Shown: positions 2,718 to 61,599 of the stretch, piece after piece
Layout: each line of letters starts with the position of its first letter
Numbering within the stretch: position 1 is the first letter of the stretch
Source of the DNA: Flavobacteriaceae bacterium EG-1
GTDB taxonomy: Bacteria; Bacteroidota; Bacteroidia; Flavobacteriales; Flavobacteriaceae
Length of the DNA: 64,000 nt
NCBI RefSeq assembly: GCF_009649685.1
Contig: NZ_WJPK01000002.1
Span: forward strand, 226,202 to 290,201
Reading direction: 5' to 3'
Program-made: the position numbers and the translations under genes
The notes under the pieces: generated by a model
The model's input: the letters and a program-made list of their open reading frames with translations, nothing else
Database searches by the model: none
What the model was told of the DNA's origin: nothing

Positions 2718-5657
2718 ATGAAAAAAATACTTTTATTATTTTGTTTGGCTTTTAGTTTGGCCGGTTATAGCCAGAGCTATGATATTGAAATCACTTTAGG
2801 ACCTCAGCTTCAAGATGTGAATGGTTTTTATGTAATTGATAATGGAAATTTAGATCCCACTCTTTCTTTCGATGCTGTAAATTCAGGAGGTGGTCAAGTC
2901 ACATCAGGTCAATTACCTAGCTATGATCTTATAATAAACACATTAGAGAGCACTATCCGTAACCCAGCTTCTGGAGGTAATCCTTTTGACGAAGATATAC
3001 ATGATTTTACCTTAATAACCAATGAGGCCATAACTGTTCCGGTAAATAATGGGATAGATGGCACTTTTGAAGTGATTATTGATGGAGATAGTGATTTTGA
3101 GGCTGACGAATACTTTACAATTGAGGTTTCCACTTCCAATCCCATCCTTAATTTGAAGAATGCTGATCCCGATGGAGTGGTACGGTTTAATATGCGTATT
3201 GAAGACTCATCGGATACGGCTACAGCCACTTTGACAAAAATACAAGACGGCGAGGAAGGAATTCAGGACATCGAATATCGAATAAAAATGAATAAAACAA
3301 ACTATACAAATCAAGACTTAGTTTTTGACATCAATATTAATAATATTAGTACGAGCCCTGAAGATTACACTAACACAACCCAAGCTACAATTGCGAATGG
3401 TCTAGATGAAGTTGTTTTCTCAATACCTATAAACACAGACTTGGAGGTGGAACCATTGGAAAGTCTTGAAACGACTTTGGGATATTCAGGGGCATTTGCA
3501 AGTAGATTAACTGTTACCCAGCCTGGACCGATAGTGGCCACAATTACAGATAATACAAATTGCTCAACAGCTGTTAATTTTACTGATTCCAATTTAGAAG
3601 CATTCTTTTTAGATACTAACAATTATTCAAGTGGTCTTATAAGAGGGGCCTCGGGAAACCTCACAATAAATGATTTAGTGGTAAACGGCAAGGTTTGTGT
3701 TGAAAAGGCTAATTTGTTGACATATTTAGATCTATCCGATGGAATAGGTATAACCTCTTTAGAAGGAATTGAACATTTTGTTAATCTAGAGATTTTATAT
3801 GCGCAGAGAAATCCTATAGTAAGTATTGATTTAAGGGCTAATGTTAATCTAATTGATTTCAGAGCTAATAGAGCCGGCGCCGTAAATGCAGGTCTAGTAG
3901 AATATGTTGATTTAAGAGGACTTTCAAATTTAGAAGTTGTCGCCCTGACCGGTAATATAATCACTGAATTACTGCTTGAGAATAATACCTCATTACAAGT
4001 GCTACATGTTCAAAATAATAATCTTACAGGCAATTTAGACATCTCGACTTTTGAAAATGGCTTGGCAAGGGGCAGTTATGGATATACCCCATTACTTTTA
4101 GATGGTAACCAGTTGAGCTGTATTAAGGTAAATGATTTAACCAATGCTCAAAATAGACTTGACAGTGGCGACTGGGTTGTCGATGACAATAATCTAGTTA
4201 AAACCAATTGTGATGAGCCTACTGCAAGCATAACCGCAAACGACCCTGATGCTTCGGAGGTGGGGCCGGACAATGGACAATTTACGGTAAACTTATCTTC
4301 GCCCGTCCCTTCTGGTTGTTGCCCAATGACAATTAGTTACACTGTTGCTGGAACTGCGCTCCCTGGAGTAGACTACACTGTTTTAACTGGCACAGTCCAA
4401 ATTCCTATAGGAGAAACATCAGCCCCTATTGATATTGACGTTATAGATAATGATGATGCTATTGATAACGAAACTGTAGAACTGACCTTAGATCCAGGCA
4501 GCGGTTATACATTAGGCACACCAAACTCGGCTATAGTAACCATAACTAATAGTGCAACTATCCCAATGGCCACAATTTCTGCAAATGACCCCAATGCTTC
4601 TGAAGTGGGGCCCGACAATGGTCAATTTACCATAGCTTTATCTTCAGCAGTTCCTGCGGGTTGCTGCCCTTTGACTATTAATTATTCTGTAGATGGCACC
4701 GCCATACCAGCAGCCGACTACATTAATCTGACTGGTACTGTTGAAATTCCCATAGGAGCTACATCAGTCACCATTGATATTAATGTTCTAAATAATGATG
4801 ATGCCGATGACATGGAATCTGTTGAAGTAACCTTAGATACAGGAATTGGTTACACCTTGGGAACACCAAACTCGGCCACAGTAACGATTACTAATAGTTT
4901 AGAAGCAAGCACTGATATAGATTTAGATATAGATGATATTATAGTTCTAGTGACCTCCGAAACTTGTGAAGGACAAAATAATGGAGAAATTGAGGTAAGT
5001 ATTTTTAATGAAAATTATACGTTTAGTGTCTTATTAGATGGAGATATTGTTGGACAAGCCTCATTCAATTCTCCTTTCACTATTAATAATCGAAGCACAG
5101 GCGAGCATATAATTTGTTTAAGGACAACGGAATATCCTGATTTTGAACAATGCTTTGGAGTTAACATTAAAGCTTTTGAAGGCCTTAATGTCTCAGGGAG
5201 CACATTTGATATAAATAATTTAACTGCTTCATATTTTGTTGAAGGGAGTAAAAATTATGAGGTATTGGTGAACGAAATAACATATAGTTTCAAATTTAAC
5301 ACCACTTCATCAAAACCTATAGAGGTTCCATTAGATTCCAATACAAACGAAATAATAATTAAGGGCATCTCAGATTGTCAGGGAGTCTTTAAGGAATCTA
5401 TAATTATAGCAGATGAAATTAGAGCTCACCCAAATCCAGTCGTCAATAATTTAGAAATTGATGGAATTCCTAATTCAGAAAATACAGAAATAGCATTATT
5501 TTCAGTATCGGGGGAGCTGATAAAACACTTAAAATTCAAAAACAAGAACTATAAAACCATAAGTGTCCCTATGTATGATATACCGGCTGGTGTTTATCTA
5601 CTTAAAGTTCTACTCCCTAATGATAATAGTTTGGATAAGAAAATCATAAAAAAATAA
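2718..5657 (+). CDS. Large T9SS-secreted surface protein with LRR-like region and two Calx-beta domains
   Basis: The start is taken as the ATG at 2718 because it gives a clean signal peptide (MKKILLLFCLAFSLAGYSQS); an in-frame TTG six bases earlier is less likely. About residues 25-270 form beta-sandwich-like sequence with Calx-beta-like segments. Residues about 280-480 resemble leucine-rich repeats (LEGIEHFVNLEILYAQRNPI, LVEYVDLRGLSNLEVVALTG). Two near-identical Calx-beta-like units follow, each with ANDP.ASEVGPDNGQFT, a CCP pair and a GYTLGTPNSA end. A two-part beta-sandwich module then precedes a T9SS sorting tail beginning HPNPVVNNLEI and ending KKIIKK. The protein should be exported across the outer membrane and attached or released there. 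The following lipoprotein gene starts 5 bases after the stop. Adhesion or glycan binding is plausible; no catalytic residues are recognised. Confidence 0.75.
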   Translation: MKKILLLFCLAFSLAGYSQSYDIEITLGPQLQDVNGFYVIDNGNLDPTLSFDAVNSGGGQVTSGQLPSYDLIINTLESTIRNPASGGNPFDEDIHDFTLITNEAITVPVNNGIDGTFEVIIDGDSDFEADEYFTIEVSTSNPILNLKNADPDGVVRFNMRIEDSSDTATATLTKIQDGEEGIQDIEYRIKMNKTNYTNQDLVFDININNISTSPEDYTNTTQATIANGLDEVVFSIPINTDLEVEPLESLETTLGYSGAFASRLTVTQPGPIVATITDNTNCSTAVNFTDSNLEAFFLDTNNYSSGLIRGASGNLTINDLVVNGKVCVEKANLLTYLDLSDGIGITSLEGIEHFVNLEILYAQRNPIVSIDLRANVNLIDFRANRAGAVNAGLVEYVDLRGLSNLEVVALTGNIITELLLENNTSLQVLHVQNNNLTGNLDISTFENGLARGSYGYTPLLLDGNQLSCIKVNDLTNAQNRLDSGDWVVDDNNLVKTNCDEPTASITANDPDASEVGPDNGQFTVNLSSPVPSGCCPMTISYTVAGTALPGVDYTVLTGTVQIPIGETSAPIDIDVIDNDDAIDNETVELTLDPGSGYTLGTPNSAIVTITNSATIPMATISANDPNASEVGPDNGQFTIALSSAVPAGCCPLTINYSVDGTAIPAADYINLTGTVEIPIGATSVTIDINVLNNDDADDMESVEVTLDTGIGYTLGTPNSATVTITNSLEASTDIDLDIDDIIVLVTSETCEGQNNGEIEVSIFNENYTFSVLLDGDIVGQASFNSPFTINNRSTGEHIICLRTTEYPDFEQCFGVNIKAFEGLNVSGSTFDINNLTASYFVEGSKNYEVLVNEITYSFKFNTTSSKPIEVPLDSNTNEIIIKGISDCQGVFKESIIIADEIRAHPNPVVNNLEIDGIPNSENTEIALFSVSGELIKHLKFKNKNYKTISVPMYDIPAGVYLLKVLLPNDNSLDKKIIKK

Positions 5658-5662
5658 TTGAC

Positions 5663-6331
5663 ATGAAAAGTATAAATATATATGTTATTCTTATCGGAAT
5701 TTTTTCATATTCCTTATGTTCGTGTGAAGGGTCCTTTGAACGCACAACTGAGATAGATCAAGTAGTTACTTTAACATTACCTGAGAATAATCAGGAGTGT
5801 TTTGGAGTAAATTTACCCAATGGAAAAATAGAAGTTAACTTTGATTGGGAAGATGTAAGCGACGCAAATACTTACACTTTAGAATATATAGAAATTGTAA
5901 GTGGTAATTCATTTACTGAAACAAGTTCCAGTTCAAATTTAAATTTAGAATTGGAACCAGGTACACAATTTTCTTGGACCGTAACAACAATTGATGCAAC
6001 AGGAAACCCTATATCAAGTGATTCTTTCAATTTTTACACTGAAGGACTTGCCGATGAAAATCATGTGCCATTTCCAGCTGAAATTGATGAATTAAATAAT
6101 AACAATAATACGTTAACAATTACCTGGAATGGTTCAGACTTAGATAATGACATTGAGTTTTATGATGTATTCTTTTCTGATCAAAATCCTCCAACTTTAT
6201 TAACGCCTGAGACTACTTCTCAGACCCAAACTGTAAATATCGAAACGAGTAAAACTTATTATCTAAATATAAGAACGGTAGATAAAAATGGTAATTTTTC
6301 AGACTCAAAGAAAATAATTAATATTCCTTAA
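5663..6331 (+). CDS. FnIII-like lipoprotein, partner of the T9SS surface protein
   Basis: The 222-residue product has a lipoprotein signal with a lipobox ending SLCSC near residue 20. It contains two fibronectin-III/Ig-like sandwiches: the first begins LTLPENNQECFG, the second is marked by WNGSDLDNDIEFYDVFFSD. It is clearly similar along its length to the lipoprotein at 56531-57232 (shared PENN.EC, F.WE, PFPA, W.GSD.DNDI, and a final T.D..GN.S). Both follow a large T9SS protein directly. Here the spacing is 5 bases, so co-translation is likely. A surface or periplasmic anchor or partner for the upstream protein is the best guess; there is no enzymatic motif. Confidence 0.65.
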   Translation: MKSINIYVILIGIFSYSLCSCEGSFERTTEIDQVVTLTLPENNQECFGVNLPNGKIEVNFDWEDVSDANTYTLEYIEIVSGNSFTETSSSSNLNLELEPGTQFSWTVTTIDATGNPISSDSFNFYTEGLADENHVPFPAEIDELNNNNNTLTITWNGSDLDNDIEFYDVFFSDQNPPTLLTPETTSQTQTVNIETSKTYYLNIRTVDKNGNFSDSKKIINIP

Positions 6332-9629: not shown

Positions 9630-11113
9630 TGAAACCCATAATTTATATTATGTTGAAATCTATCTTCAAAAAAACATTTTTAAAGCATATTTGCTTCTTT
9701 ATTCTTTTCACTTTTATTAGTTGTGTTGAAAAACAAAAAAATACAACTGAAGCTAACGAGATAATAATTAAACCGCCAAACATCATCCTTTTAATGGCAG
9801 ATGATCAAGGGTGGGGTGACGTAGGATACAATGAACATCCACATTTAAAAACTCCAAATTTAGATGCCATGGCTGCGAACGGAGCTGTATTCGAACGTTT
9901 TTATGCAGGATCCGCCGTTTGTTCTCCAACACGTGGGAGCGTAATGACAGGTAGACACCCAATGCGATATGGTATTTGTTATGCTAATTGTGGACACATT
10001 AAAAAAGAAGAAGTGACTTTAGCAGAAATGGTTAAAGAAAAGGGATACACCACAGGACATTTTGGCAAATGGCACTTGGGAACTTTAACTCGAGACACTT
10101 TGGATGCAAACAGAGGTGGCAACCCTAAATACGACAACGATTACGCGCCACCTTGGGAACATGGTTTTGATGTAAGTTTTGTTACAGAATCTAAAGTACC
10201 TACATATAATCCTATGATTACACCACCTTCAACGTCTGGTGACGTAAATGGAAAACTTAAAGAAGGTAAACCATTTAATACTTTTTATTGGACTGGTCCT
10301 AATCAAATTGAAACAGAAAATCTAGAGGGAGACGACTCAAAAGTAATAATGGATCGTGTGATTCCGTTTATAGAAGATGCCTCAAAATCAAAAAAACCTT
10401 TTCTTTCTGTAGTTTGGTTTCACACTCCTCACTTACCAGTAATTGCGGGTGAAAACCATAAAAATATATACAGTGAGCTATCAGAAGACCAACAACACTA
10501 TTATGGTGTTTTAACTGCAATGGACGAACAAATAGGAAGACTACGAACTAAACTTAAAAAGTTAGGTATTGAAGACAATACTATTTTATTCTATACTAGT
10601 GATAATGGTCCTGAAGGTAAAATGGCTACTGGAAGAACTCAAGGTATTACCAAAGGATTAAAGGGCAGAAAACGAAGTTTATACGAAGGTGGTATTAGGG
10701 TTCCTGGAATTATCGAATGGGCTGGCACTATTAAACCAAACACAACGGTTAAGGCTCCCTGTTTTACATCAGATTATTTTCCAACGATTGCCAACCTTCT
10801 AAAAATTGACCTAGAAAAATACCAACGCCCTTACGATGGAGTTGATATTTTACCCTTTGCACTTCAAACTAAAAAGGAAAGATTTTCTCCACTTGCGTTT
10901 AGCATTGATAACTATGCTGCCTTAATAGAGAACAAATATAAAATTCATAGAAACGACCCAAAAAGTCAGTTTGAATTATATGACATAGAAAATGACCCGG
11001 CTGAAAAAAATAATCTATCCAAGGAAAATCCTGACAAATTACATGAAATGGTCACGCTTTGGAATGCATGGGACCAATCTAGAGCTGCTAGTGCTCAAGG
11101 AAAAGATTATTAA
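9629..11113 (+). CDS. Type I sulfatase, lipoprotein
   Basis: The 494-residue product is a formylglycine-dependent sulfatase: ADDQGWGD supplies metal ligands, CSPTR (Cys98) is the maturation site, HFGKWHLG and SDNGPEG complete the active site. The N-terminus ends in a lipobox (FTFISC), so it should be lipid-anchored. The ATG at 9629 overlaps the previous stop as TAATG, favouring translational coupling; an in-frame ATG at 9650 also gives a good lipoprotein signal and cannot be excluded. It should remove sulfate from oligosaccharides handled by the neighbouring SusC/SusD. The subfamily and the sulfate position cannot be assigned by eye. Confidence 0.85.
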   Translation: MKPIIYIMLKSIFKKTFLKHICFFILFTFISCVEKQKNTTEANEIIIKPPNIILLMADDQGWGDVGYNEHPHLKTPNLDAMAANGAVFERFYAGSAVCSPTRGSVMTGRHPMRYGICYANCGHIKKEEVTLAEMVKEKGYTTGHFGKWHLGTLTRDTLDANRGGNPKYDNDYAPPWEHGFDVSFVTESKVPTYNPMITPPSTSGDVNGKLKEGKPFNTFYWTGPNQIETENLEGDDSKVIMDRVIPFIEDASKSKKPFLSVVWFHTPHLPVIAGENHKNIYSELSEDQQHYYGVLTAMDEQIGRLRTKLKKLGIEDNTILFYTSDNGPEGKMATGRTQGITKGLKGRKRSLYEGGIRVPGIIEWAGTIKPNTTVKAPCFTSDYFPTIANLLKIDLEKYQRPYDGVDILPFALQTKKERFSPLAFSIDNYAALIENKYKIHRNDPKSQFELYDIENDPAEKNNLSKENPDKLHEMVTLWNAWDQSRAASAQGKDY

Positions 11114-11146
11114 GAATTCTTCCTGTATCGGTTTTAAATAAATTTA

Positions 11147-11180
11147 GAACAAAACTTTTATTCTTAAAATAGTTTTGCTC
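11147..11180 (+). terminator. Hairpin downstream of the sulfatase pair
   Basis: GAACAAAACT (11147-11156) pairs with AGTTTTGCTC (11171-11180) with one mismatch on the plus strand, and the inner AT-rich bases extend the stem partly. There is no clear T tract after it, so it may be a 3' end stabiliser rather than a strong terminator. Confidence 0.35.
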
Positions 11181-11395
11181 CAACAACTATAAAAAGCAGC
11201 GAAATTAATGAACGTATACTCTTAAGCGTTGTAATTACATGTGTTTACAAACCAGTTTCAATTTATCAACTTCATCGTTTAATCCTTTATAAATTAACAT
11301 ATTGATAAAATTGTCCATGTTTTTGAATCAAATATCCATTCTATTGCCTAATTGTCAGATTATGTTTGATGAAACTTTTAATCAACATAACGAAA

Positions 11396-14300
11396 ATGAA
11401 AAAACTCAAACTTTTAATGATGCTCCTTCTACTAGGTGTTACATCAGTTTCATTTGCTCAAACACAAATTAGCGGTGTTGTTCTAGATGATGCTAATGTA
11501 CCTTTACCTGGAGCCAGTATAATTGAAAAAGGAACATCAAATGGTGTGGTGTCTGATTTCGATGGTAATTTCACCATTTCAATAACTGATGGTACAGCAT
11601 TAGAAATATCTTATATAGGATATGAAACGAAAGAAATACTTTTAGACGGCTCTTCAAATTACAGCATTCAACTCGGAGAATCTTCAACTAGCCTTGATGA
11701 AGTAGTGGTTATTGGTTATGGTTCTGTAAAGAAAAGTGACCTAACCGGAGCTGTAGCTTCTATTGGTTCTGAACAATTAACTGAGCAACGTAAAACAGAT
11801 CTTGGTCAAGCAGTAAGAGGTACCGTGGCCGGGGTTGATGTCAGAAGGTTAAATTCAAAACCAGGCTCTCCACTTTCTATTAGAATAAGAGGTAACACGG
11901 TTATAACTAATAATAACCAAGCTAATAAAGATGGTCAAAGCGATGATGTAACAGAAGATTTATCTAGACCACTTTATGTGGTAGATGGTATTTTTCTTGA
12001 CAATATCAATCTCTTAAACCCTTCTGACATTAAGCAAATGGACATTTTAAAAGATGCATCAGCAACTGCCATCTATGGTTCTAGAGGTGCTAATGGTGTT
12101 GTAATCATTACCACCAAAAATGGAATAGAAGGTAAAACACAATTCTCTTATGACGCCTCATTTGGAATAAGTACAGCTAGCAATTTAGTAGATACAATGT
12201 CTGGAGATGATTATGTTTCATTTATAGATAGTAGTTTAAGAGCTGAGCAATGGAAAGCACAATGGCTAGATAGTTCAACTCCAAATCCTGTAGCCGCAGA
12301 TTATAATAATTATTCGATTAACAGAGCTACAGAATTTTTCGATAATGGCGAAACAGATAATATAGCTAACGGCAGGTACTTTGATTGGGTAGATTATATC
12401 ACAAGAACAGCTATTCAATCTAGTCACACCATATCCATGTCGGGTGGTCAAAATGGACTAATTTACAGTTCCTCAATAGGATACTTAAAAGATGAAGGTG
12501 TTGTTGGAAATGATCAGCAATATGAACGCTATACGGCGTCTACTTCCCTTTCAAAAAAGATAAACAGATTAACTATTGGTTTACGAGCATATCTTTCTTA
12601 TTCAGAACAAGAATCGGGAAGTAGAGAACTCTTTAGAAGCGCCTACAGATTGCCTGTTACTACTGACCCATACGAAGATAACGGTGATTTAATATTATAC
12701 CCTGATGATGAAGACCAGCGTTTTATAAATCCATATTATGAAGTAAATGGCGCATGGAAGGTAAACCAAAGAATACTTAATGTTATTTCTAATTTCTATA
12801 TTCAGTATGAGGCTGCTGATTGGTTAAATTTAAAATCAACATTTTCTCCTAACCTTTCTTCCACTAGAAATGGAGAACACAGGGGACTACTCACGAAAGC
12901 GGCACGTAATGATCCTTCAAGAACTAGAGCATATTTTGGAACAGACTTGAGAAATTCATACACATGGGACAATACTGTAGATTTTAACTTCGATATTACC
13001 GAAAATCAAAAATTAAGCACAACATTGATTGCTTCTGTATATTACAACCAATTAGAGGGTAATAATATTGAAACTAGAAATGTTCCTGATTTCAATGGAT
13101 TCTACAACACTGGTGCTGGAACCGATATTAGAGAATATAGTTCTTATTTTCAAAAAGAATCTACTGCTTCTGTCGCAGGTCGTTTAAACTATAATATCAA
13201 CGACAAATATCTTTTCACTTTCACAGGCAGATATGATGGTGCCTCTAAATTAGCCGAAGGTAATAAATGGAACTTCTTTCCATCAGCAGCCTTTGCATGG
13301 CGCGCAAGTGAAGAACAATTTTTACAAAATGCCGATTGGTTGTCAAATTTAAAATTTAGATTAAGTTATGGGCAATCTGGAAACTATAATACAGTAGGAC
13401 CATACCAATCATTTGCCTTCTTGAATGATGCAAATTATTTATTTGGAGATGCACTAAACAATGGCAATATTGTTAGCGGATTGTCTAACAACCAATTAAC
13501 CTGGGAGGTTTCCGATGAAATAAACTTTGGTCTTGATTTTGGTTTATTCAACAACAGAATTAATCTATCACTTGAATTATACGACAAAACAACAAATGGA
13601 GCTATATTCTCGAGAGACCTGTTAAGTTTAACTGGTTTTGATAGTGCCATAGGAAACTTTGGTTCTATGAAAAATAGTGGTATTGAGGTTTCTTTAAACA
13701 CGAAAAATATTCAAACGGATAACTTTAGCTGGAATACTAGTTTAAACTTCGCAAGAAATAAGAATGAAATTCTAAAACTTGAAGGAGACCTAGATTTACA
13801 AGTATTTGGCACTCATAGCGCATTAATCGTCGGACAACCATCCGATGCTATTTATTCTTACGAAAAATTAGGAATTTGGCAAATTGATGAAGCGGCAGAA
13901 GCAGCAATTTACAACGCAGTTCCGGGGGAATATAAATTTAAAGATCAAAACAATGACGGTGTATTAGATGCAGTAAATGATAAAGTTGTAATTGGCACTA
14001 CAGCTCCAGATTGGACCGGTGGTATGACTAATACTTTTAAATATAAAAATGTTGATTTATCGGTAATGATGTATACTAGACAAGGCATCTTCGGCCATTC
14101 AGAATTTCATCAACATCATAATATTAATGCTAGTGAAACTAGATTCAACAAAATAAATACCTCATACTGGACTCCCGATAATCCAACAGCTGAAAATCCT
14201 TTACCTGGAGTCACCCCTACTGTTGGCGAATATTGGTTTGAAGATATGTCCTTTGTTAAAATTGGTAATATTGGAATGGGTTACAACTTTCCAAGTAGTT

Positions 14301-23062: not shown

Positions 23063-23087
23063 AAACAATTCTACGATTCTATTGTTT
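23063..23087. terminator. Bidirectional hairpin between convergent genes
   Basis: AAACAAT (23063-23069) and ATTGTTT (23081-23087) are perfect 7-base arms around an 11-base loop, between the regulator stop (23055) and the end of the minus-strand gene. The right arm overlaps the last codons of that gene. A shared weak terminator is the simplest reading. Confidence 0.4.
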
Positions 23088-25937
23088 ATAGATTAAATGA
23101 CGTTCAGTAAGATCACCTATTTGCACTAAAGCTATATAATAACCTGAATTTAAATCATTTAAATCTATTTGATTATCCGAATTACTTACTTTTTTTCGCT
23201 TAACAAAATCACCATCCATTCCGAAAATATTTATCATTCCAATAGTACCCAAAGGCAATACATTAGCATCAACATTTAACACATCAATAACCGGATTTGG
23301 GTATATTCCAATTATACTATTCTCTGTAGCAGTGTCAGCCAAGTCAGTTTCTTCTTCCTTTTCTTCAACTATATCAAGTACGCCACCATCTGCCGCCCAA
23401 ATGATTGCCTCTTTCATCATAGTTCTAAATTTAGCATCACTTTTATAATCTTTAGAATTATGTCCTAATGCTGTATAGAAAGAACGACCACCATCATATT
23501 CCTTATACCAAGTAACAGGTCTTGCAGCATCGTATGTATTTGCACCAGTAGTTCGCACTTGTAACAAATCTACATTACCATTATACAAATAACCACCATT
23601 ACGTTCCCAGTAGTAATACTCATCGTTTTTATGCCATTCTGTAGCACCTAAATGAGCAACTGCTGAATGCTCACCTACCACATCAATTATTCCACTAAAA
23701 TTACTAGAAGTATGATATGGAGAGACCTGTACGACGGCCCCAACCAAATCATTATACCAACTCCAACTTCCACTTCTATAAGTGTCCGTTGCCGAATGCA
23801 CCCCAACAAAGCCACCACCATTTTGTATATAAGATTCGAAAGCCTTCTCTTCAGATGCCGTTAGAATTTTATCTCCGGTAGTATTCATCCAAATTACAAC
23901 ATCATAATTTGCTAAGTTTTCATTAGTAAAGACATCACTAGTTTGTGAATCAGCAACTACCCAATTAAGTTCTTTTCCAAATTCATTCACCATATCTATG
24001 CCCGCTTGAATTGAAGAATGTCTAAACTCACCCGTTTCATGATAGACCAATACATGTACTTTTTGTTCTTCTTCAATAACTTCCTCTGGTTCAATTGTTG
24101 TTGATATAGTACTCGTTCCGTTTACTACAATTATTTTATCCCCAAATACTTCCGCAATTGGCTCTATAACTTGTAACGGTAATTTGCAACGATCGGACCA
24201 TGTATCTGTTGCGACATCATATTCAATAATATCCTTAAGTGTATTTCCCCCACTCTTTCCGCCAACTATTATTATTCTATTATTGTGAACTATTGTTCCA
24301 GATTGAAAATTTGAACGCACACTTGGTAGATTAGCTTTACTAATCCAGGTATTACTTTCAGGATTGTATTCATCTAAAAAACTCTGATTTGGAATACTAT
24401 CAGCAAGTACACTTTCTCCTCCTATAGCATAAATTTTATCACCAACAGTTGCAGCACTAAGAGAACTTCTAGAATTTGGAAGATCTGCAGCCAATTGCCA
24501 ACCAGCCGCCACATCATTTACATTTAAAACCAAATGCTCGCTTAAGCTAGTTTCACTATCCGACATTAGTCCTCCGAAATAATGCACCTCACTATTAAAA
24601 AATGCAGCCGCACCTGCAGAACGCGCACTAGGTAACTGCGGACCCATGGACCAAGTATTGGTACTCGTATTGTATACTTGAACGATGTTTGTAGCGGTAG
24701 CAAGGGAGTCATTTTTAATACCTGCGATAAGCCAAATTTCATCATTAACAGCTACAGTAGCCATTTCTGACACAGCAGTAGGCATTGAATTTACTTCTGA
24801 CCAAATATCGTTCGTTGCATCGTACACTTCGGTAACTGACGAAATTATTGAATCTGACACGGCGCTTGTAAATACAAATAACTTATTCTCTATTTTTACA
24901 CGTTGCGAATTATACTTTTCATTAGAAGAATTGGCAAGATTACTCCAAACACATTCTTCTGGAAAAACCACAATTTCTTCTCCAAAAATTTCAATGGCAG
25001 AAACCTTTGGTTGGTTTACAGTAGCACCGAAATCTATATTCAACACACTATCAACTACAGTTGTAGTATACGTTTTTATTAGTGCAGTCATCGGTGCCGC
25101 TTCTGCACTCAAATCGAAATCAACAATTATTTCTTCTCCTTCTATCGATGCATTAAAAACACGCTTACCTAATCCAGCCTCACCTCCATTGGTTGCACCC
25201 CAATAAATCTCAGCAAAATGTAAATTTATTTCATATTGCCCATTTGCAACTGGAATATTGTATCCAAAATTTTGCAAACTACCATTTGTAGTACGTTCAG
25301 TTTTATAAATGGAATCATTTGATGTTTCAAAAACATCTACAATATTATTATTTGCATAGGATTTACTACTGCCAACAAATAAAGTATCTGCAATAAATTG
25401 AATTGAATCATTAAACATTACGGCTGGACCACCACTATTTATTCTTAACTCGAAAGCCGGAATTACTACTTGGGTTCTTTCTAGTATTTCAAAATTTACG
25501 GTCAACGAATCTCCTGATGTTCCCGTTCCATTATCTTGGTTAAAAGCTGTTGCAGTTAATGTATTTACTCCAAAATCGGGAGTCCATGGTCGGTAGTCAT
25601 CATCATCATTTGCGCCAATTGCATATTCTGGAAGATTTTCGGTATGGTAATTTTTCACAGACTGATAGTCGAAAACAACACTTTGTGTTAACGAATCAAC
25701 CTCCGCTCTTATATTTAGATTTGTAGTACCAATTTCTTCAAGTATAAATATTGAACCCTCTGTAATTTCTGCTATATCTTCATCAGTATCTGCATTAACA
25801 AGCACAAAAGATAACACGTTCGGTGCAACAATTTCTACTATACTATCTTGTTCTAAGGGAATTTCTTGTGAGATAACATTTTGACAGATACAAAATATTG
25901 CAAGTGCCATAGTATACTTTAAAAGTACGTTTTTCAT
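23079..25937 (-). CDS. Secreted multidomain protein: malectin-like, kelch propeller, ThuA-like, T9SS tail
   Basis: The 952-residue protein has a signal peptide (MKNVLLKYTMALAIFCICQN). About residues 155-320 form a malectin-like carbohydrate-binding domain (FELRINSGG, YEINLHFAEIYWGAT, LNIDFGATVNQPKVSAIEI). Residues about 330-610 are kelch repeats (WSMGPQLPSARSAGAAAFF, DKIYAIGGE, RIIIVGGKSGG). Residues about 635-880 are a ThuA-like glutamine-amidotransferase-fold domain (HVLVYHETGEFRHSSI, GGGFVGVHSATDTY, GRSFYTALGHN). The C-terminus is a T9SS sorting domain (IGIYPNPVIDVLNVDAN) ending HLIYKQ. It should be exported to the surface. ThuA-like domains often occur in sugar metabolism, but the reaction is unsettled. 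It converges on the HTCS gene with 23 bases between and is probably part of the same polysaccharide locus. Confidence 0.8.
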   Translation of the reverse strand: MKNVLLKYTMALAIFCICQNVISQEIPLEQDSIVEIVAPNVLSFVLVNADTDEDIAEITEGSIFILEEIGTTNLNIRAEVDSLTQSVVFDYQSVKNYHTENLPEYAIGANDDDDYRPWTPDFGVNTLTATAFNQDNGTGTSGDSLTVNFEILERTQVVIPAFELRINSGGPAVMFNDSIQFIADTLFVGSSKSYANNNIVDVFETSNDSIYKTERTTNGSLQNFGYNIPVANGQYEINLHFAEIYWGATNGGEAGLGKRVFNASIEGEEIIVDFDLSAEAAPMTALIKTYTTTVVDSVLNIDFGATVNQPKVSAIEIFGEEIVVFPEECVWSNLANSSNEKYNSQRVKIENKLFVFTSAVSDSIISSVTEVYDATNDIWSEVNSMPTAVSEMATVAVNDEIWLIAGIKNDSLATATNIVQVYNTSTNTWSMGPQLPSARSAGAAAFFNSEVHYFGGLMSDSETSLSEHLVLNVNDVAAGWQLAADLPNSRSSLSAATVGDKIYAIGGESVLADSIPNQSFLDEYNPESNTWISKANLPSVRSNFQSGTIVHNNRIIIVGGKSGGNTLKDIIEYDVATDTWSDRCKLPLQVIEPIAEVFGDKIIVVNGTSTISTTIEPEEVIEEEQKVHVLVYHETGEFRHSSIQAGIDMVNEFGKELNWVVADSQTSDVFTNENLANYDVVIWMNTTGDKILTASEEKAFESYIQNGGGFVGVHSATDTYRSGSWSWYNDLVGAVVQVSPYHTSSNFSGIIDVVGEHSAVAHLGATEWHKNDEYYYWERNGGYLYNGNVDLLQVRTTGANTYDAARPVTWYKEYDGGRSFYTALGHNSKDYKSDAKFRTMMKEAIIWAADGGVLDIVEEKEEETDLADTATENSIIGIYPNPVIDVLNVDANVLPLGTIGMINIFGMDGDFVKRKKVSNSDNQIDLNDLNSGYYIALVQIGDLTERHLIYKQ

Positions 25938-56530: not shown

Positions 56531-57232
56531 CTACTGAACTTTAAAATCGAACACCTCTGATTGCGAAGTATTACCCACATTATCTTTAGTTATCACTTGC
56601 CAAAAATATGTTTGCCCCGAAACTACATTAACAGACATTGAACTTTGAGAGGCAACTCCAATATTTGTTGAAGGGGTAGCAACTGTGCCAAAAAGCACTT
56701 CAAATTCAACTATATCATTATCCACATCACTCCCCTGCCATTCAAGGCTTACAGCTGTTGACGCAGCAATAGACTCTCCTCTTCTCGGACTAACAACCGA
56801 AGCTGGAAAAGGTGCGTAATTCGTTACCCCTTCACCAGCATTGTAAAACTTCCAAATTGCGCTTACTGGCGCAACATCAGAATTATTAGCTCTTGTAACA
56901 ACAAACCATTCATATGGAGTATTACTTTTAAGTGTAATAGTAGATTCGTTGGTTGTTACTTCCGTTTTTTGAGTATCTCCATTTTCTAGATTTTTTAGGT
57001 TTACTTCGTAACTATCTGCATTTTGTGAAGCCTCCCATATGAAAGTTATTGCACTTTGCAAATTGTTTACTGCCTCACCCTCTGTACACTCAGAATTATT
57101 CTCTGGAAAAACCAGGGCTACACTTCCTGGGTCACCTATCGGATCCACATCCGGATTATCATTTTTACTTCCAGGACATGCCGTTAAAACTACTAGTAAC
57201 AGTAACGTCATTATCAGTTTTATTACTCTCAT
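56531..57232 (-). CDS. FnIII-like lipoprotein, partner of the M4 protease
   Basis: The 233-residue lipoprotein (lipobox VLTAC) has two fibronectin-III-like domains: the first starts LVFPENNSECTEG, the second carries SLEWQGSDVDNDIVEFEVLF and ends TKDNVGNTSQSEVFDF. It is a clear paralogue of the lipoprotein at 5663-6331. Its ATG overlaps the protease stop as ATGA, so translation is coupled. In both loci the lipoprotein follows a large T9SS-sorted protein, suggesting that it anchors or assists it. No catalytic motif is present. Confidence 0.7.
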   Translation of the reverse strand: MRVIKLIMTLLLLVVLTACPGSKNDNPDVDPIGDPGSVALVFPENNSECTEGEAVNNLQSAITFIWEASQNADSYEVNLKNLENGDTQKTEVTTNESTITLKSNTPYEWFVVTRANNSDVAPVSAIWKFYNAGEGVTNYAPFPASVVSPRRGESIAASTAVSLEWQGSDVDNDIVEFEVLFGTVATPSTNIGVASQSSMSVNVVSGQTYFWQVITKDNVGNTSQSEVFDFKVQ

Positions 57233-60200
57233 TGTTTTATTATTTTAAATAATTTTGTTTCTCCATCTATCAAAACCGACAACACATAAACTCCTGCTGT
57301 TAAGCCATCGGCATTAAGTTTAATCACACTTGTATTCGGCTCAATATTCTTTTGGAGTACGGTTCTACCATCAAAAGTGTTCAATAGTATTGGTAACGAA
57401 TAGCCATATGTTTTACCAAGTGCTACCGAAATCTCTCCGCTTTGTACAGGGTTAGGGTATACGACAACTGCATCATTCAAATCAAAATTTTCTTCATGTA
57501 AACCCTGACAAATCTTATCAGTTTTAATAGTTAATTTTGTTATGGATGTCTTTAAAGGAATTGTTATTTCAGACTTGTTGGTTACAATTACTTCATCGTT
57601 CAATGAGATTGTATATTCATTAGCACCAGACAAATTTAAACTAACCGATTTGGCACTTAAATTCACTTTTGAACTCACCGACAGTGCTTCAGGTTTTGCT
57701 ACAACCACATCAAAACAACTCGAATAACCTGTTTGTCCTGCTATAGTAATACATACATTATAGGTACCCCCTTCTAAATCAGAAAAAGAAATAGCATTAG
57801 TAAAATCATTTGTTTTATTTACCCCATTTCCTGTAATCGTTGCTGTATAATTATGATTTTCAACAGCTAAAATAGTTATGCTTCCATTTGCACTATTAAC
57901 ACAAGATTCGCCTTTGGCAGATACACTAAAATTAGTATTGGGTAATGAGAAAATTTCACATCCAGTTACATCAACTGCTGTACCAAATGGTGTATTTGGG
58001 CATTGATCATCCGCATTAAGCACTCCATCATTATCATCATCATTAGGGTTGTCAGGAACACTATCTCCTATGCTTACTGTAAAGTTTTTTGTAGTTCCGT
58101 CTTCAGCAGTTACTGTATAGACAACTGGATTTGTAAAATCATTACTAGAAACGCCGCTTTGCTGGTTTACGCCCGAAACAGCAACAGTAGCACTTGCCGA
58201 AATAGCGAAAGTTGCAACTAAATTTTCTGGATTTATATTGCTTGGAAGATTTACCGAAATTACATTACCATTAATTGAAGCTACTGTTGGCGGCGCTGTG
58301 ATATTAAATCTAAAATCAGTAATTTCTTTTTCATTACTTAATGTACTCCTAGAACCTACGGTATACCAAATACCCCATTTACCATCTGGAATTAATTCTG
58401 AGGCATTGCCGGATGGACTAATTCTATCTGCAGCCATATTAATGGCTAATATATTCTCATCACTACCACTGAAAGTATCAAATATTATTTTATCATCTGT
58501 TTTTGAATAATTTGGAAATCCTAATTTATTATTCTCATATACTGTTTTAACTTCTCCTGTTTCAATATTTGCTGAAATTACTTCGTAAACATTGTTTAAA
58601 TTATCAAAATAATCGAAGGCGATAATGTTACCTGATGTTTTAGAAAATGATGGATTACCAATACTTACACCTTCTGGTAAATTGGTAAATATTTTCTGAA
58701 TGCTACCATCACCATAAGTATTTGTCTGATTATCCCAAACCTTCATTGCGCCCACGTCCCAATATTCGATACTTTCACCTTCACCATTTCGCAACCTATT
58801 TAAGGCATCATAAATAAGATATTGCCCTGAATAATCCCATTCTAAGGCATCTGGATACAGAACTTCACCTGTAGTTACACCATCTGCCGAAGTTGGATTA
58901 TACAATTCAAAAGACCTAGAATCGCCATTAACCAAATCTGAAATAAATATAACATTTGACTCATCATTTATAACTGCAGCCAGTTTGGTTCCATCTTTGG
59001 AAAGGGAAACCGCTGCCCAAATTGGCTCACTTGAAATTACTGTTTCTTCTACATTATTTAAATCTAAGTTTATTGCATTTACAGTATTATCATCTGTTAC
59101 ATAAATGGCTAAACTACCATCATCTGCAACACTAGGTTTTCTATAAATTCCGGTTGTTGTTAATGCAAAATATTCCGTTGCTGCAGTATCGGAAATGTAT
59201 AAGGTGTTAGGGTTATCGGTATCAACATCTAGACTAAGAATAAAATCATCTCCATCGGCGGTAGGAATATCTCTGTCTGTATCGGTTCCCGATCCATCGG
59301 TAATACCTACTGTATCATAGGCATTTTTAACTGCTATTACTTCTGGAGTATTATCACCGTATAAATCAATTGCAGATTGAATTACTGCTAACCGAAGATC
59401 GATAAATTGTGATGATACCGTTAAATAGGATTCTAAGGCACGATAATATATTTGTTCTGCTTTGTTTTTACTTATATCTGTTGCAACTAGATAATAAGCT
59501 CTATTTAGAATACCACTATTTATATGTACCCCTCCATTATCGCGAGTTCCCGCATAATATTCGGTCATATCTTTTGGTTGCCATCCATTTTCATCAGAAT
59601 TTACGCCGTTATTAGGATTCTGCATATCACGCATTGCACCTGAAGTAAAAACATCTGTATTTACAATATCTTCACCCAATTTCCAATCGTCTCTATCTAT
59701 CATCGCACCGAAAATATCAGCAAAGGATTCATTAATCGCACCTGACTGATTTAAGTACTCTAAATTTGCAGTTGCTCTAATTACACCATGCGTCATTTCA
59801 TGCCCACCTACATCCAAAGCACCAGCTAACGGTTTAAAGGCATCTCTTCCATTACCGTAATAAATGGATTTTCCATTCCAAAAAGCATTATCTAATCCGC
59901 CACCATCTTCGTCCCCTACATTAATAAAAGATATAATTGTACCCCCTTCGCCATTTATTGAATTTCTATTGAATGTATTTTTATAATAGTTATAAGAAAC
60001 CTCAGCATTATAATGTGCAGAAACTGCAGTTGGGTTATCCCAATTATTAGTAGCGGATGTTACATGATAAATATCATTTTCTTCATAAGGCGACTCGTTT
60101 CTATAATCTAGGGTTATGATTGCACCAACAGGATTATCTGGCAATTCAGATTGCGCTTCATTAAACATTGCTTCAGAAGTGTTAATCAAATAATTTTGAC

Positions 60201-61170
60201 CATTAACACTATAGGCATTTATTTGTCTATTTACCCCATTCAAATCAGTACCCGTACCATTTGTAGGAGGCACTAAAATAGCCGAATGTGAATGGTTAAC
60301 TTCATTTAAATTATGATATAAAGTACAGGTATGGTAATATTTATTAATTATTTCACCTGTTTGAGCATCAACAAAATACTCCCATCTATCCATAGGATTT
60401 GGGAACACCGTTAAATGTCTTGCTAAAATATTCTTTCCTTCATGAGTATAAATTAGAAGCTCTTCTTCAAAATCAGAATTTGTTAATTGAGAAAGACCCA
60501 TAACCAAATTCTTAATATTTATTTTAGTCCCTAAATCTTTTTCAACTTCTTGCAAAGCATCTGTGACAGACAATTTAGGTATGGTACTGTTAATTATAGG
60601 AGTAGGTTTATTTCTACCATTTAAAGCACTTACTTTATTGTCTTCATCCAAATGTAAAACCACTTCACTGCCGTAAACTTTGACCCCTTGAAACATTTGT
60701 TGCATTTTAATATGGGTCTGACCTAATTTATCAACTTCATATGAGATTTCTTTAAACTCCGCTGTTGGGTCATTTATTTGAAGTAAATTTTTTACATCTA
60801 TTAAATAGTCATTTGCACTATTTTTTATTGATTGTTTCGCAGTTAGTGCCGCCGTTTCAGCGGTTGCTTTACTTTTAATAAACAATGGCAAACCATTCTC
60901 AGATTTATTGAGTACATGATGTTCATATTTATTACTTTCTGACCGTTCATTAAAAATTGAAGGCATTTGAAAATTTGTGTAACCAGTAGCCTTTAAATGT
61001 TTTCCACTTTTGTCTTTTGATATATTAAGGGTTTTAAAATTTTTTACAGTGCCGGCCTTAGCCGACATCCCTTTTTTATGCTTTTTATCATCAAAAGAAT
61101 CTTGAGCCAATAGTATGGATGCGGAGAAAAAGCAACATATAAAAGCTAATATTTGTAGTTCTCGTTTCAT
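57229..61170 (-). CDS. T9SS-secreted M4 (thermolysin-type) metallopeptidase
   Basis: The 1313-residue protein has a signal peptide, an FTP/PepSY inhibitory propeptide (about 60-215; QMFQGVKVYGSEVVLHLDED), and an M4 catalytic domain with the zinc motif HEMTH at residues 457-461 and the third-ligand helix NESFADIFGAMID. DNGGVHINSGILNRAYYL carries the expected active-site His. Residues about 655-935 look like a propeller, followed by a beta-sandwich (about 945-1040), a short thrombospondin type 3 calcium repeat (NDDDNDGVLNADDQCP), a two-part sandwich module shared with the 2.7 kb surface protein, and a T9SS tail (VVVYPNPVQSGEISVALG). It should degrade proteins at the cell surface or outside. It is the third of four closely spaced genes. 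Confidence 0.88.
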   Translation of the reverse strand: MKRELQILAFICCFFSASILLAQDSFDDKKHKKGMSAKAGTVKNFKTLNISKDKSGKHLKATGYTNFQMPSIFNERSESNKYEHHVLNKSENGLPLFIKSKATAETAALTAKQSIKNSANDYLIDVKNLLQINDPTAEFKEISYEVDKLGQTHIKMQQMFQGVKVYGSEVVLHLDEDNKVSALNGRNKPTPIINSTIPKLSVTDALQEVEKDLGTKINIKNLVMGLSQLTNSDFEEELLIYTHEGKNILARHLTVFPNPMDRWEYFVDAQTGEIINKYYHTCTLYHNLNEVNHSHSAILVPPTNGTGTDLNGVNRQINAYSVNGQNYLINTSEAMFNEAQSELPDNPVGAIITLDYRNESPYEENDIYHVTSATNNWDNPTAVSAHYNAEVSYNYYKNTFNRNSINGEGGTIISFINVGDEDGGGLDNAFWNGKSIYYGNGRDAFKPLAGALDVGGHEMTHGVIRATANLEYLNQSGAINESFADIFGAMIDRDDWKLGEDIVNTDVFTSGAMRDMQNPNNGVNSDENGWQPKDMTEYYAGTRDNGGVHINSGILNRAYYLVATDISKNKAEQIYYRALESYLTVSSQFIDLRLAVIQSAIDLYGDNTPEVIAVKNAYDTVGITDGSGTDTDRDIPTADGDDFILSLDVDTDNPNTLYISDTAATEYFALTTTGIYRKPSVADDGSLAIYVTDDNTVNAINLDLNNVEETVISSEPIWAAVSLSKDGTKLAAVINDESNVIFISDLVNGDSRSFELYNPTSADGVTTGEVLYPDALEWDYSGQYLIYDALNRLRNGEGESIEYWDVGAMKVWDNQTNTYGDGSIQKIFTNLPEGVSIGNPSFSKTSGNIIAFDYFDNLNNVYEVISANIETGEVKTVYENNKLGFPNYSKTDDKIIFDTFSGSDENILAINMAADRISPSGNASELIPDGKWGIWYTVGSRSTLSNEKEITDFRFNITAPPTVASINGNVISVNLPSNINPENLVATFAISASATVAVSGVNQQSGVSSNDFTNPVVYTVTAEDGTTKNFTVSIGDSVPDNPNDDDNDGVLNADDQCPNTPFGTAVDVTGCEIFSLPNTNFSVSAKGESCVNSANGSITILAVENHNYTATITGNGVNKTNDFTNAISFSDLEGGTYNVCITIAGQTGYSSCFDVVVAKPEALSVSSKVNLSAKSVSLNLSGANEYTISLNDEVIVTNKSEITIPLKTSITKLTIKTDKICQGLHEENFDLNDAVVVYPNPVQSGEISVALGKTYGYSLPILLNTFDGRTVLQKNIEPNTSVIKLNADGLTAGVYVLSVLIDGETKLFKIIKQ

Positions 61171-61173
61171 AAC

Positions 61174-61599
61174 TTATAATTCTATTAGTTTTTTTAGTTG
61201 CTTATAAAAATCCGAATACTCCTTGGAGATTTTATGATCTTCAGCCCCCCAAACAATCCTATGCTTTTTATCTAAACTTACTTCTTCTAAAAAATAATAG
61301 CGATTGCCTGGATGGTTAAAATCTAATTTTGAAATTGACAACTCTTCTAATTTTAAAAAAATCGCTTTAACCTCCTTTTTAGTTATAGCATCTAATTCAA
61401 CAACTTCTTTTGTTAGTGAACTTGTGCGAAATAGTTGACCATTTTCAATAAGCACATACGTATTTATTGCACCGGTCATGCCACCACCATTACCAAAAAC
61501 AAGTTGTTTATCAGGGAGTTCATCAAAAGTATATTGTTGCGATTTACATCCTAAAAAAAATAGTGCTAGCATACAAGAAAACAAGAGTGTCAATTTCAT
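61174..61599 (-). CDS. Small lipoprotein of unknown function
   Basis: The 141-residue protein has a lipobox (FFLGC) near residue 18 and no motif I can assign. Visible elements are a glycine-rich GNGGGMTGAINTYVLIENG and a Lys-rich C-terminal helix (FYKQLKKLIEL). It starts 22 bases after the barrel gene and its stop lies 3 bases before the protease start, so it belongs to the operon. A role in folding, inhibition or export of the protease is possible but not shown. Confidence 0.6.
   Translation of the reverse strand: MKLTLLFSCMLALFFLGCKSQQYTFDELPDKQLVFGNGGGMTGAINTYVLIENGQLFRTSSLTKEVVELDAITKKEVKAIFLKLEELSISKLDFNHPGNRYYFLEEVSLDKKHRIVWGAEDHKISKEYSDFYKQLKKLIEL

Follow-up and report, generated by a model that had tools for sequence, protein, structure and literature searches.

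A putative docking module and its neighbouring lipoprotein in type IX-secreted proteins of Flavobacteriaceae

The window analysed here, a stretch of 64,000 nucleotides from Flavobacteriaceae bacterium EG-1 (NCBI RefSeq assembly GCF_009649685.1, contig NZ_WJPK01000002.1, positions 226,202 to 290,201), carries two units in which a large cargo protein of the type IX secretion system (T9SS) is encoded immediately ahead of a lipoprotein built of fibronectin type III (FnIII)-like domains. We propose, with a probability of roughly 0.6, that such a unit is a cognate docking pair, in which a module located in front of the sorting tail tethers the secreted cargo to a surface lipoprotein. In this and related genomes the two genes are paired and translationally coupled, the module keeps its position while the cargo bodies in front of it are exchanged, and module and lipoprotein co-evolve in a way that the sorting tail does not. 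The features of the two units, in window positions, are:

2718..5657, plus strand: cargo 1, with Sec signal peptide, leucine-rich repeats (LRR), two Calx-beta domains, docking module and type A sorting tail
4938..5438, plus strand: docking module of cargo 1, composed of two beta-sandwich halves with the motifs E.C...NG.I, CF.V and CQG..E; module profile score 141
5427..5654, plus strand: T9SS type A sorting domain of cargo 1 (TIGR04183 / PF18962)
5663..6331, plus strand: partner lipoprotein 1, with lipoprotein signal peptide and two FnIII-like domains; lipoprotein profile score 217
57229..61170, minus strand: cargo 2, with FTP propeptide, M4 thermolysin-type protease, docking module and type A sorting tail
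57448..57930, minus strand: docking module of cargo 2; module profile score 193
57232..57462, minus strand: type A sorting domain (T9SS) of cargo 2
56531..57232, minus strand: partner lipoprotein 2; lipoprotein profile score 286

Both pairs had been pointed out in a sequence-only reading of the window, and the open reading frames (ORFs), junctions and Pfam domains bear them out. The mechanically called ORF of cargo 1 opens at TTG 2712, the fitting start being ATG 2718. As read from the sequence, five bases lie between the TAA of cargo 1 and the lipoprotein ATG at 5663, and the ATG of lipoprotein 2 overlaps the stop codon of cargo 2 as ATGA. The cargo bodies differ, as that reading had stated, with Calx-beta, LRR_4 and Por_Secre_tail recognized by Pfam in cargo 1 and FTP, Peptidase_M4 and Por_Secre_tail in cargo 2. 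The C-termini, consisting of about 160 residues and the tail (241 residues), align with E = 2e-12, and both tails are of type A according to TIGR04183 (31.7 bits for cargo 1 and 26.0 bits for cargo 2 at a cut-off of 23). The lipoproteins, in both of which fn3 is matched by Pfam, were likewise correctly described as similar along their length (E = 7e-22, 27% identity).

A genome-wide search identified four full lipoproteins and four full modules, each adjoining its counterpart, so that the window holds two of four pairs. The cargo of the third pair is an LRR/DUF7619/SprB protein (C1) and that of the fourth an M12B reprolysin with a P-domain (C3), the junctions being TAATG and ATGA, respectively. 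Among the 24 type A cargo tails of the genome, four are preceded by the module, and a lipoprotein gene follows exactly those four, a coincidence expected by chance once in 10,626 (the reciprocal of the number of possible choices of 4 out of 24). The translocon protein SprA is encoded as well (TIGR04189, 2855 bits). A further protein with a type A sorting tail, with neither module nor lipoprotein, is encoded in the window at 23079-25937 on the minus strand. Elsewhere in the genome, at C1:1563415-1563717 (L018:11416-11718), a solitary lipoprotein piece of 100 amino acids, comprising the second FnIII domain only and having no partner gene, looks like a remnant. A simple recent duplication of one cassette was rejected as the origin of the pairs, given the unrelated bodies, identities of 25-45% and the location of the M12B pair beside the peptidyl-tRNA hydrolase gene (pth) in several genera; the copy beside pth (L017, L023, L026, L036) is an old one kept in synteny.

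Pairing of the two genes across relatives

To cover the family of strain EG-1, 60 genomes were sampled, one per genus, and lipoprotein matches were taken at E < 1e-20. The resulting 57 matches reside in 25 of the 60 genomes, and at 54 of them the gene immediately upstream is an ORF with the module. Of the remaining three, two are located at contig ends and one shows a reversed order, in which the module gene follows the lipoprotein gene. In a sample of 296 genomes of the phylum, all 26 strong lipoprotein matches (E < 1e-30) adjoin a module, 25 of these modules being full and one, at a decayed locus, partial, and nearly all belong to the same family, while the weaker matches are other FnIII proteins in genomes almost all of which have no module match. 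Among named genomes 80 loci were kept, 78 of which have a module ORF directly upstream and two of which are masked there, and thus the pairing holds at all 78 readable loci. The gap between the cargo and lipoprotein genes at these 78 loci is -4 in 51 and -1 in 10, an ATGA overlap being the usual junction. Genera with the pair include Maribacter, Cellulophaga, Zobellia, Robiginitalea, Tenacibaculum and Croceitalea; outside the family it is found in Mucilaginibacter, and it occurs in Sphingobacteriaceae. Almost all lipoprotein homologues hence adjoin a module gene, and the modules align in profile searches. Both outcomes that the sequence-only reading had named as refuting it thus failed to appear, and its proposal of a dedicated T9SS cargo unit is well supported.

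One of the 54 paired loci has decayed, a deletion having joined a portion of the module to a portion of the lipoprotein. At L232:3697-4485 (G001 C13), the remnant of an M4-type unit, the signal peptide and the first part of the module run in frame into a lipoprotein fragment, behind which a frameshift occurs; here both partners decay together. In three clusters (L217, L229 and L261) a single lipoprotein gene accompanies two cargo genes with the module, which suggests that two cargo proteins can share one lipoprotein. In L229, two long ORFs (9658-11592 and 11628-13517, G019 C1) in which the same FnIII type is repeated several times lie close to a module/lipoprotein pair and one additional module gene; they are possibly multi-site receptors.

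The sequence-only reading further placed an outer-membrane barrel at the start of each unit, a view that did not stand. The barrels upstream of the two window units belong to the unrelated Pfam families DUF5723 and OMP_b-brl_2, no barrel is found upstream of the genome's other two pairs, and among 67 related loci with upstream sequence the barrel of unit 2 occurs at one, a syntenic M4 unit, and that of unit 1 at none. The barrel was therefore rejected as a part of the unit. In unit 2, barrel and cargo are separated by the gene for a small lipoprotein of 141 amino acids (61174-61599, minus strand), which matches no family and is kept upstream of M4-type units elsewhere (L137, L232).

Anatomy and co-evolution of module and lipoprotein

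The module comprises about 160 residues in two halves and has a fixed position immediately ahead of the sorting tail, which measures 68-75 residues in nearly every pair. The first half, with the motifs E.C..NNG.I and C..CF, is weakly similar to SprB repeats (PF13573), far below the curated cut-off (best E = 4e-4; 15 bits for the window member against a cut-off of 28), and the second half, with G...Y.I..NG....T and CQG..E, matches no family. The lipoprotein consists of a lipobox, a linker rich in Asp, Gly and Pro, and two domains resembling FnIII (PF00041). No Pfam or NCBIfam model covers either the module or the lipoprotein as a family. A sequence search of the PDB returned no credible relative of the module and generic FnIII proteins for the lipoprotein, and fold searches of PDB and viral structures with the predicted model returned generic Ig/FnIII chains only. 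The lipoprotein occurs in two subtypes, distinguished by the presence or absence of an EG loop, and these match two subtypes of the module, CQG and CEG.

Across 127 pairs the bodies in front of the module fall into 29 clusters, a few of which are short fragments at contig ends, and represent at least 20 unrelated bodies. Sortilin/BNR propellers (49), alpha-amylases (17), M12B proteases (15) and beta-helices (8) are joined by GH42-like and M4 enzymes, beta-porphyranase, cellulase with the carbohydrate-binding module (CBM) CBM6, LRR and TIG/NHL proteins, LamG with a glycosidase core, and others.

The pairwise distances of modules and lipoproteins among these 127 pairs correlate with r = 0.856, a value above that for the two halves of the lipoprotein with each other (r = 0.713). 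The sorting tail, which lies between both on the DNA, reaches r = 0.447 with the lipoprotein and a partial correlation of 0.13 given the module. When partners were shuffled within 15 multi-pair genomes (45 pairs), the observed value of 0.736 was reached in none of 2000 shuffles, the mean of which was 0.235. In a column-matched control, 72 random module columns gave r = 0.69-0.83 compared to 0.45 for 72 columns of the tail, and among the close half of the pairs the values are 0.75 for the module and 0.56 for the tail. This pattern, a correlation drawn from sequence distances, is the one that a specific interface would predict and that plain operon inheritance would not. Residue-level co-variation (mutual information with average product correction) is higher between module and lipoprotein than with the tail; as the split into subtypes dominates this signal, it was not used as evidence for contact.

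Proposed mechanism and alternatives

In the mechanism that we favour, a cargo protein of any fold, enzyme or adhesin, would leave the cell through the common T9SS translocon SprA/PorV by means of its ordinary type A tail. The module of about 160 residues before the tail would then bind the co-translated outer-membrane lipoprotein with its two FnIII-like domains, and the lipoprotein, presumed to be exposed on the outside, would display the module-bound cargo at the cell surface and hold it there without a covalent link to lipopolysaccharide (LPS). Retention at the surface would be the purpose of the pair. A surface position is suggested by the start of the lipoproteins: across the 127 pairs, residues +2 to +11 after the lipobox Cys are Asp-rich, with 2.3 acidic and 0.5 basic residues, and resemble published surface-export signals of flavobacterial lipoproteins, although the position of the acidic residues, and the window members, differ from the SDDFE signal beside the +1 Cys (PMC5080379). 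Recognition between lipoprotein and module had already been suggested by the sequence-only reading and is backed indirectly, by a co-evolution that the intervening tail lacks, but two structure predictions disagree on it. For these, use was made of natural loci at which cargo stop and lipoprotein start are in frame, the stop being read as Gln, so that module, tail and lipoprotein form one chain. For the pair of L189 (147 rows, almost every one covering a single part), AlphaFold yielded a mean predicted local distance difference test (pLDDT) value of 91.0 and a predicted template modelling score (pTM) of 0.71. By our estimate, independent bodies of these sizes give a pTM of about 0.5 at most, and thus, judged from pTM alone, module and lipoprotein appear to be placed relative to each other in this model. 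Both folds are well predicted in the two runs, which differ with regard to the complex.

Several observations weigh against the docking pair. The second prediction, for the pair of L151 (87 rows), gave a pLDDT of 91.3 and a pTM of 0.47, as for unconnected bodies. The 60 family genomes contain 23 unpaired modules, some of which are located at contig ends or belong to second cargo genes of the same cluster, but about 17 are true orphans with no lipoprotein gene nearby, most though not all of them in genomes with a lipoprotein gene at another place. Evolution is faster in the tail than in the module, and part of the tail's low correlation is due to saturation. Finally, the four lipoproteins of strain EG-1 have only weakly acidic N-termini, so that exposure at the surface is uncertain.

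The same obligate pairing, coupling and co-evolution would equally be expected if the lipoprotein were a secretion accessory, i.e., a periplasmic chaperone, pilot or second shuttle that engages the module on the inner side of the outer membrane and passes the cargo to the translocon without being the final anchor. Type B cargo, which requires its own downstream-encoded PorP/SprF shuttle (PMC12618676), provides a precedent. However, the cargo proteins have tails of the ordinary type A kind, for which PorV is responsible (PMC12618676), and the acidic N-termini found across the lipoproteins favour the surface. That 20 other type A cargo proteins of the same genome manage without such a lipoprotein also speaks against a shuttle role. 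We regard an accessory function as the most serious competitor, at a distinctly lower probability than docking. It is rather improbable that the partners make no physical contact at all, the operon being inherited as a block, with the module serving as a stalk and the lipoprotein acting otherwise on the surface. Such a reading would be in line with the generic beta-sandwich type of both proteins, the existence of orphan modules and the AlphaFold run without docking; yet under block inheritance tail and module should track the lipoprotein equally well, which is not the case, and the exchange of bodies along with a constant partnership of module and lipoprotein would be left unexplained.

Two further explanations appear very unlikely. 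As two cargo proteins of strain EG-1 are proteases (M4 and M12B), and inhibitors are often encoded next door, the lipoprotein might be an inhibitor or immunity protein. The same lipoprotein family, however, stands behind amylase, cellulase, porphyranase, LRR, propeller and TIG/NHL bodies and co-evolves with the module beside the tail, and this interpretation was rejected on account of the too diverse cargo bodies. Just as small a chance is given to module and lipoprotein binding the same glycan or capsule and thereby co-localizing without touching. Weak CBM-like or FnIII-like profile matches and the many cargo proteins that act on polysaccharides would agree with this, but there is no strong match to a carbohydrate-binding family, and the partner-specific co-evolution inside single genomes fits direct contact better.

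Relation to known systems and to the PorU sortase

Type B cargo proteins bind a PorP/SprF-like barrel, encoded downstream, that shuttles and anchors them (PMC9143113, PMC12618676). The units described here resemble these systems (SprB/SprF, PG1035/PorP) in that a cargo-specific partner is encoded directly downstream, that several cognate pairs occur per genome, that orphan cargo must use a partner encoded elsewhere, and that the partner presumably attaches the cargo to the cell surface. They differ from them in the tail, which is of type A (TIGR04183), TIGR04131 not being among the NCBIfam matches, in a recognition part that forms a separate module before the tail, and in the partner, which is an FnIII lipoprotein instead of a FadL-type outer-membrane barrel. 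The principle of a T9SS cargo with its own downstream partner is thus known, while tail, recognition part and partner are different here. Type A tail, common translocon and surface display are shared with the Porphyromonas gingivalis cargo attached to anionic LPS (A-LPS) by the sortase PorU (PMC10202324). There, PorU links the cargo covalently after cutting the tail; in contrast, the link proposed here is non-covalent and the EG-1 genome has no detectable PorU.

Dockerin and cohesin provide an arrangement in which one interchangeable docking module on many enzymes meets one receptor fold on the cell. The module described here would work in a like manner, as an interchangeable docking part on many bodies, but this is an analogy of function: no relation in sequence was found, there is one receptor gene per cargo gene, and the secretion system is a different one. 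The tandem genes pep25/lbp26 of Flavobacterium collinsii were considered and rejected as Wza/Wzz-like (PMC9950754). In the literature outside subscription papers, no description of such pairs or of type A cargo held by a lipoprotein was found.

In the EG-1 genome, which is 99.9% complete, the PorU search gave NF033707 matches at the level of the C-terminal domain only and none to PF01364, whereas the same search identified full-length PorU in 37 of the 60 family genomes and fragments in one more. PorU is missing in 18 of the 25 genomes with the pair as compared to 4 of the 35 without it (raw Fisher p = 5e-6). On an rpoB tree most of this signal originates from the 12-genome clade of strain EG-1, which is PorU-less and has the pair throughout; further PorU-less branches with the pair are G020/G052, G004, G047 and G031, and PorU-less genomes without it are G007, G016, G023 and G035. 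Since only three independent contrasts are supported, too few for significance after phylogenetic correction, we keep the anti-correlation as a lead. Independent hints come from the literature: a Flagellimonas-like isolate has been reported to glide despite lacking PorU and PorQ (PMC7440613), and Sphingobacteriia, to which the pair extends, have been reported to lack PorQ, PorU and PorZ (PMC7323717). It might tentatively be speculated, though we consider it doubtful, that in PorU-less Bacteroidota docking modules and their cognate FnIII lipoproteins replace the PorU/A-LPS attachment as a sortase-independent anchoring of T9SS cargo.

How type A cargo is sorted into released and surface-kept proteins is an open question (PMC10202324); A-LPS is unknown in some bacteria (PMC9950754), and the sortase is absent in others (PMC7440613, PMC7323717). 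If the proposed docking holds true, the pair of module and lipoprotein would explain surface retention across a large group of polymer-degrading marine bacteria, would offer a plug-in tag for displaying enzymes on their surface, and would define two protein families that the searched databases leave unnamed. In many marine bacteria the units probably serve as a dedicated means of keeping otherwise unrelated secreted proteins at the cell surface.

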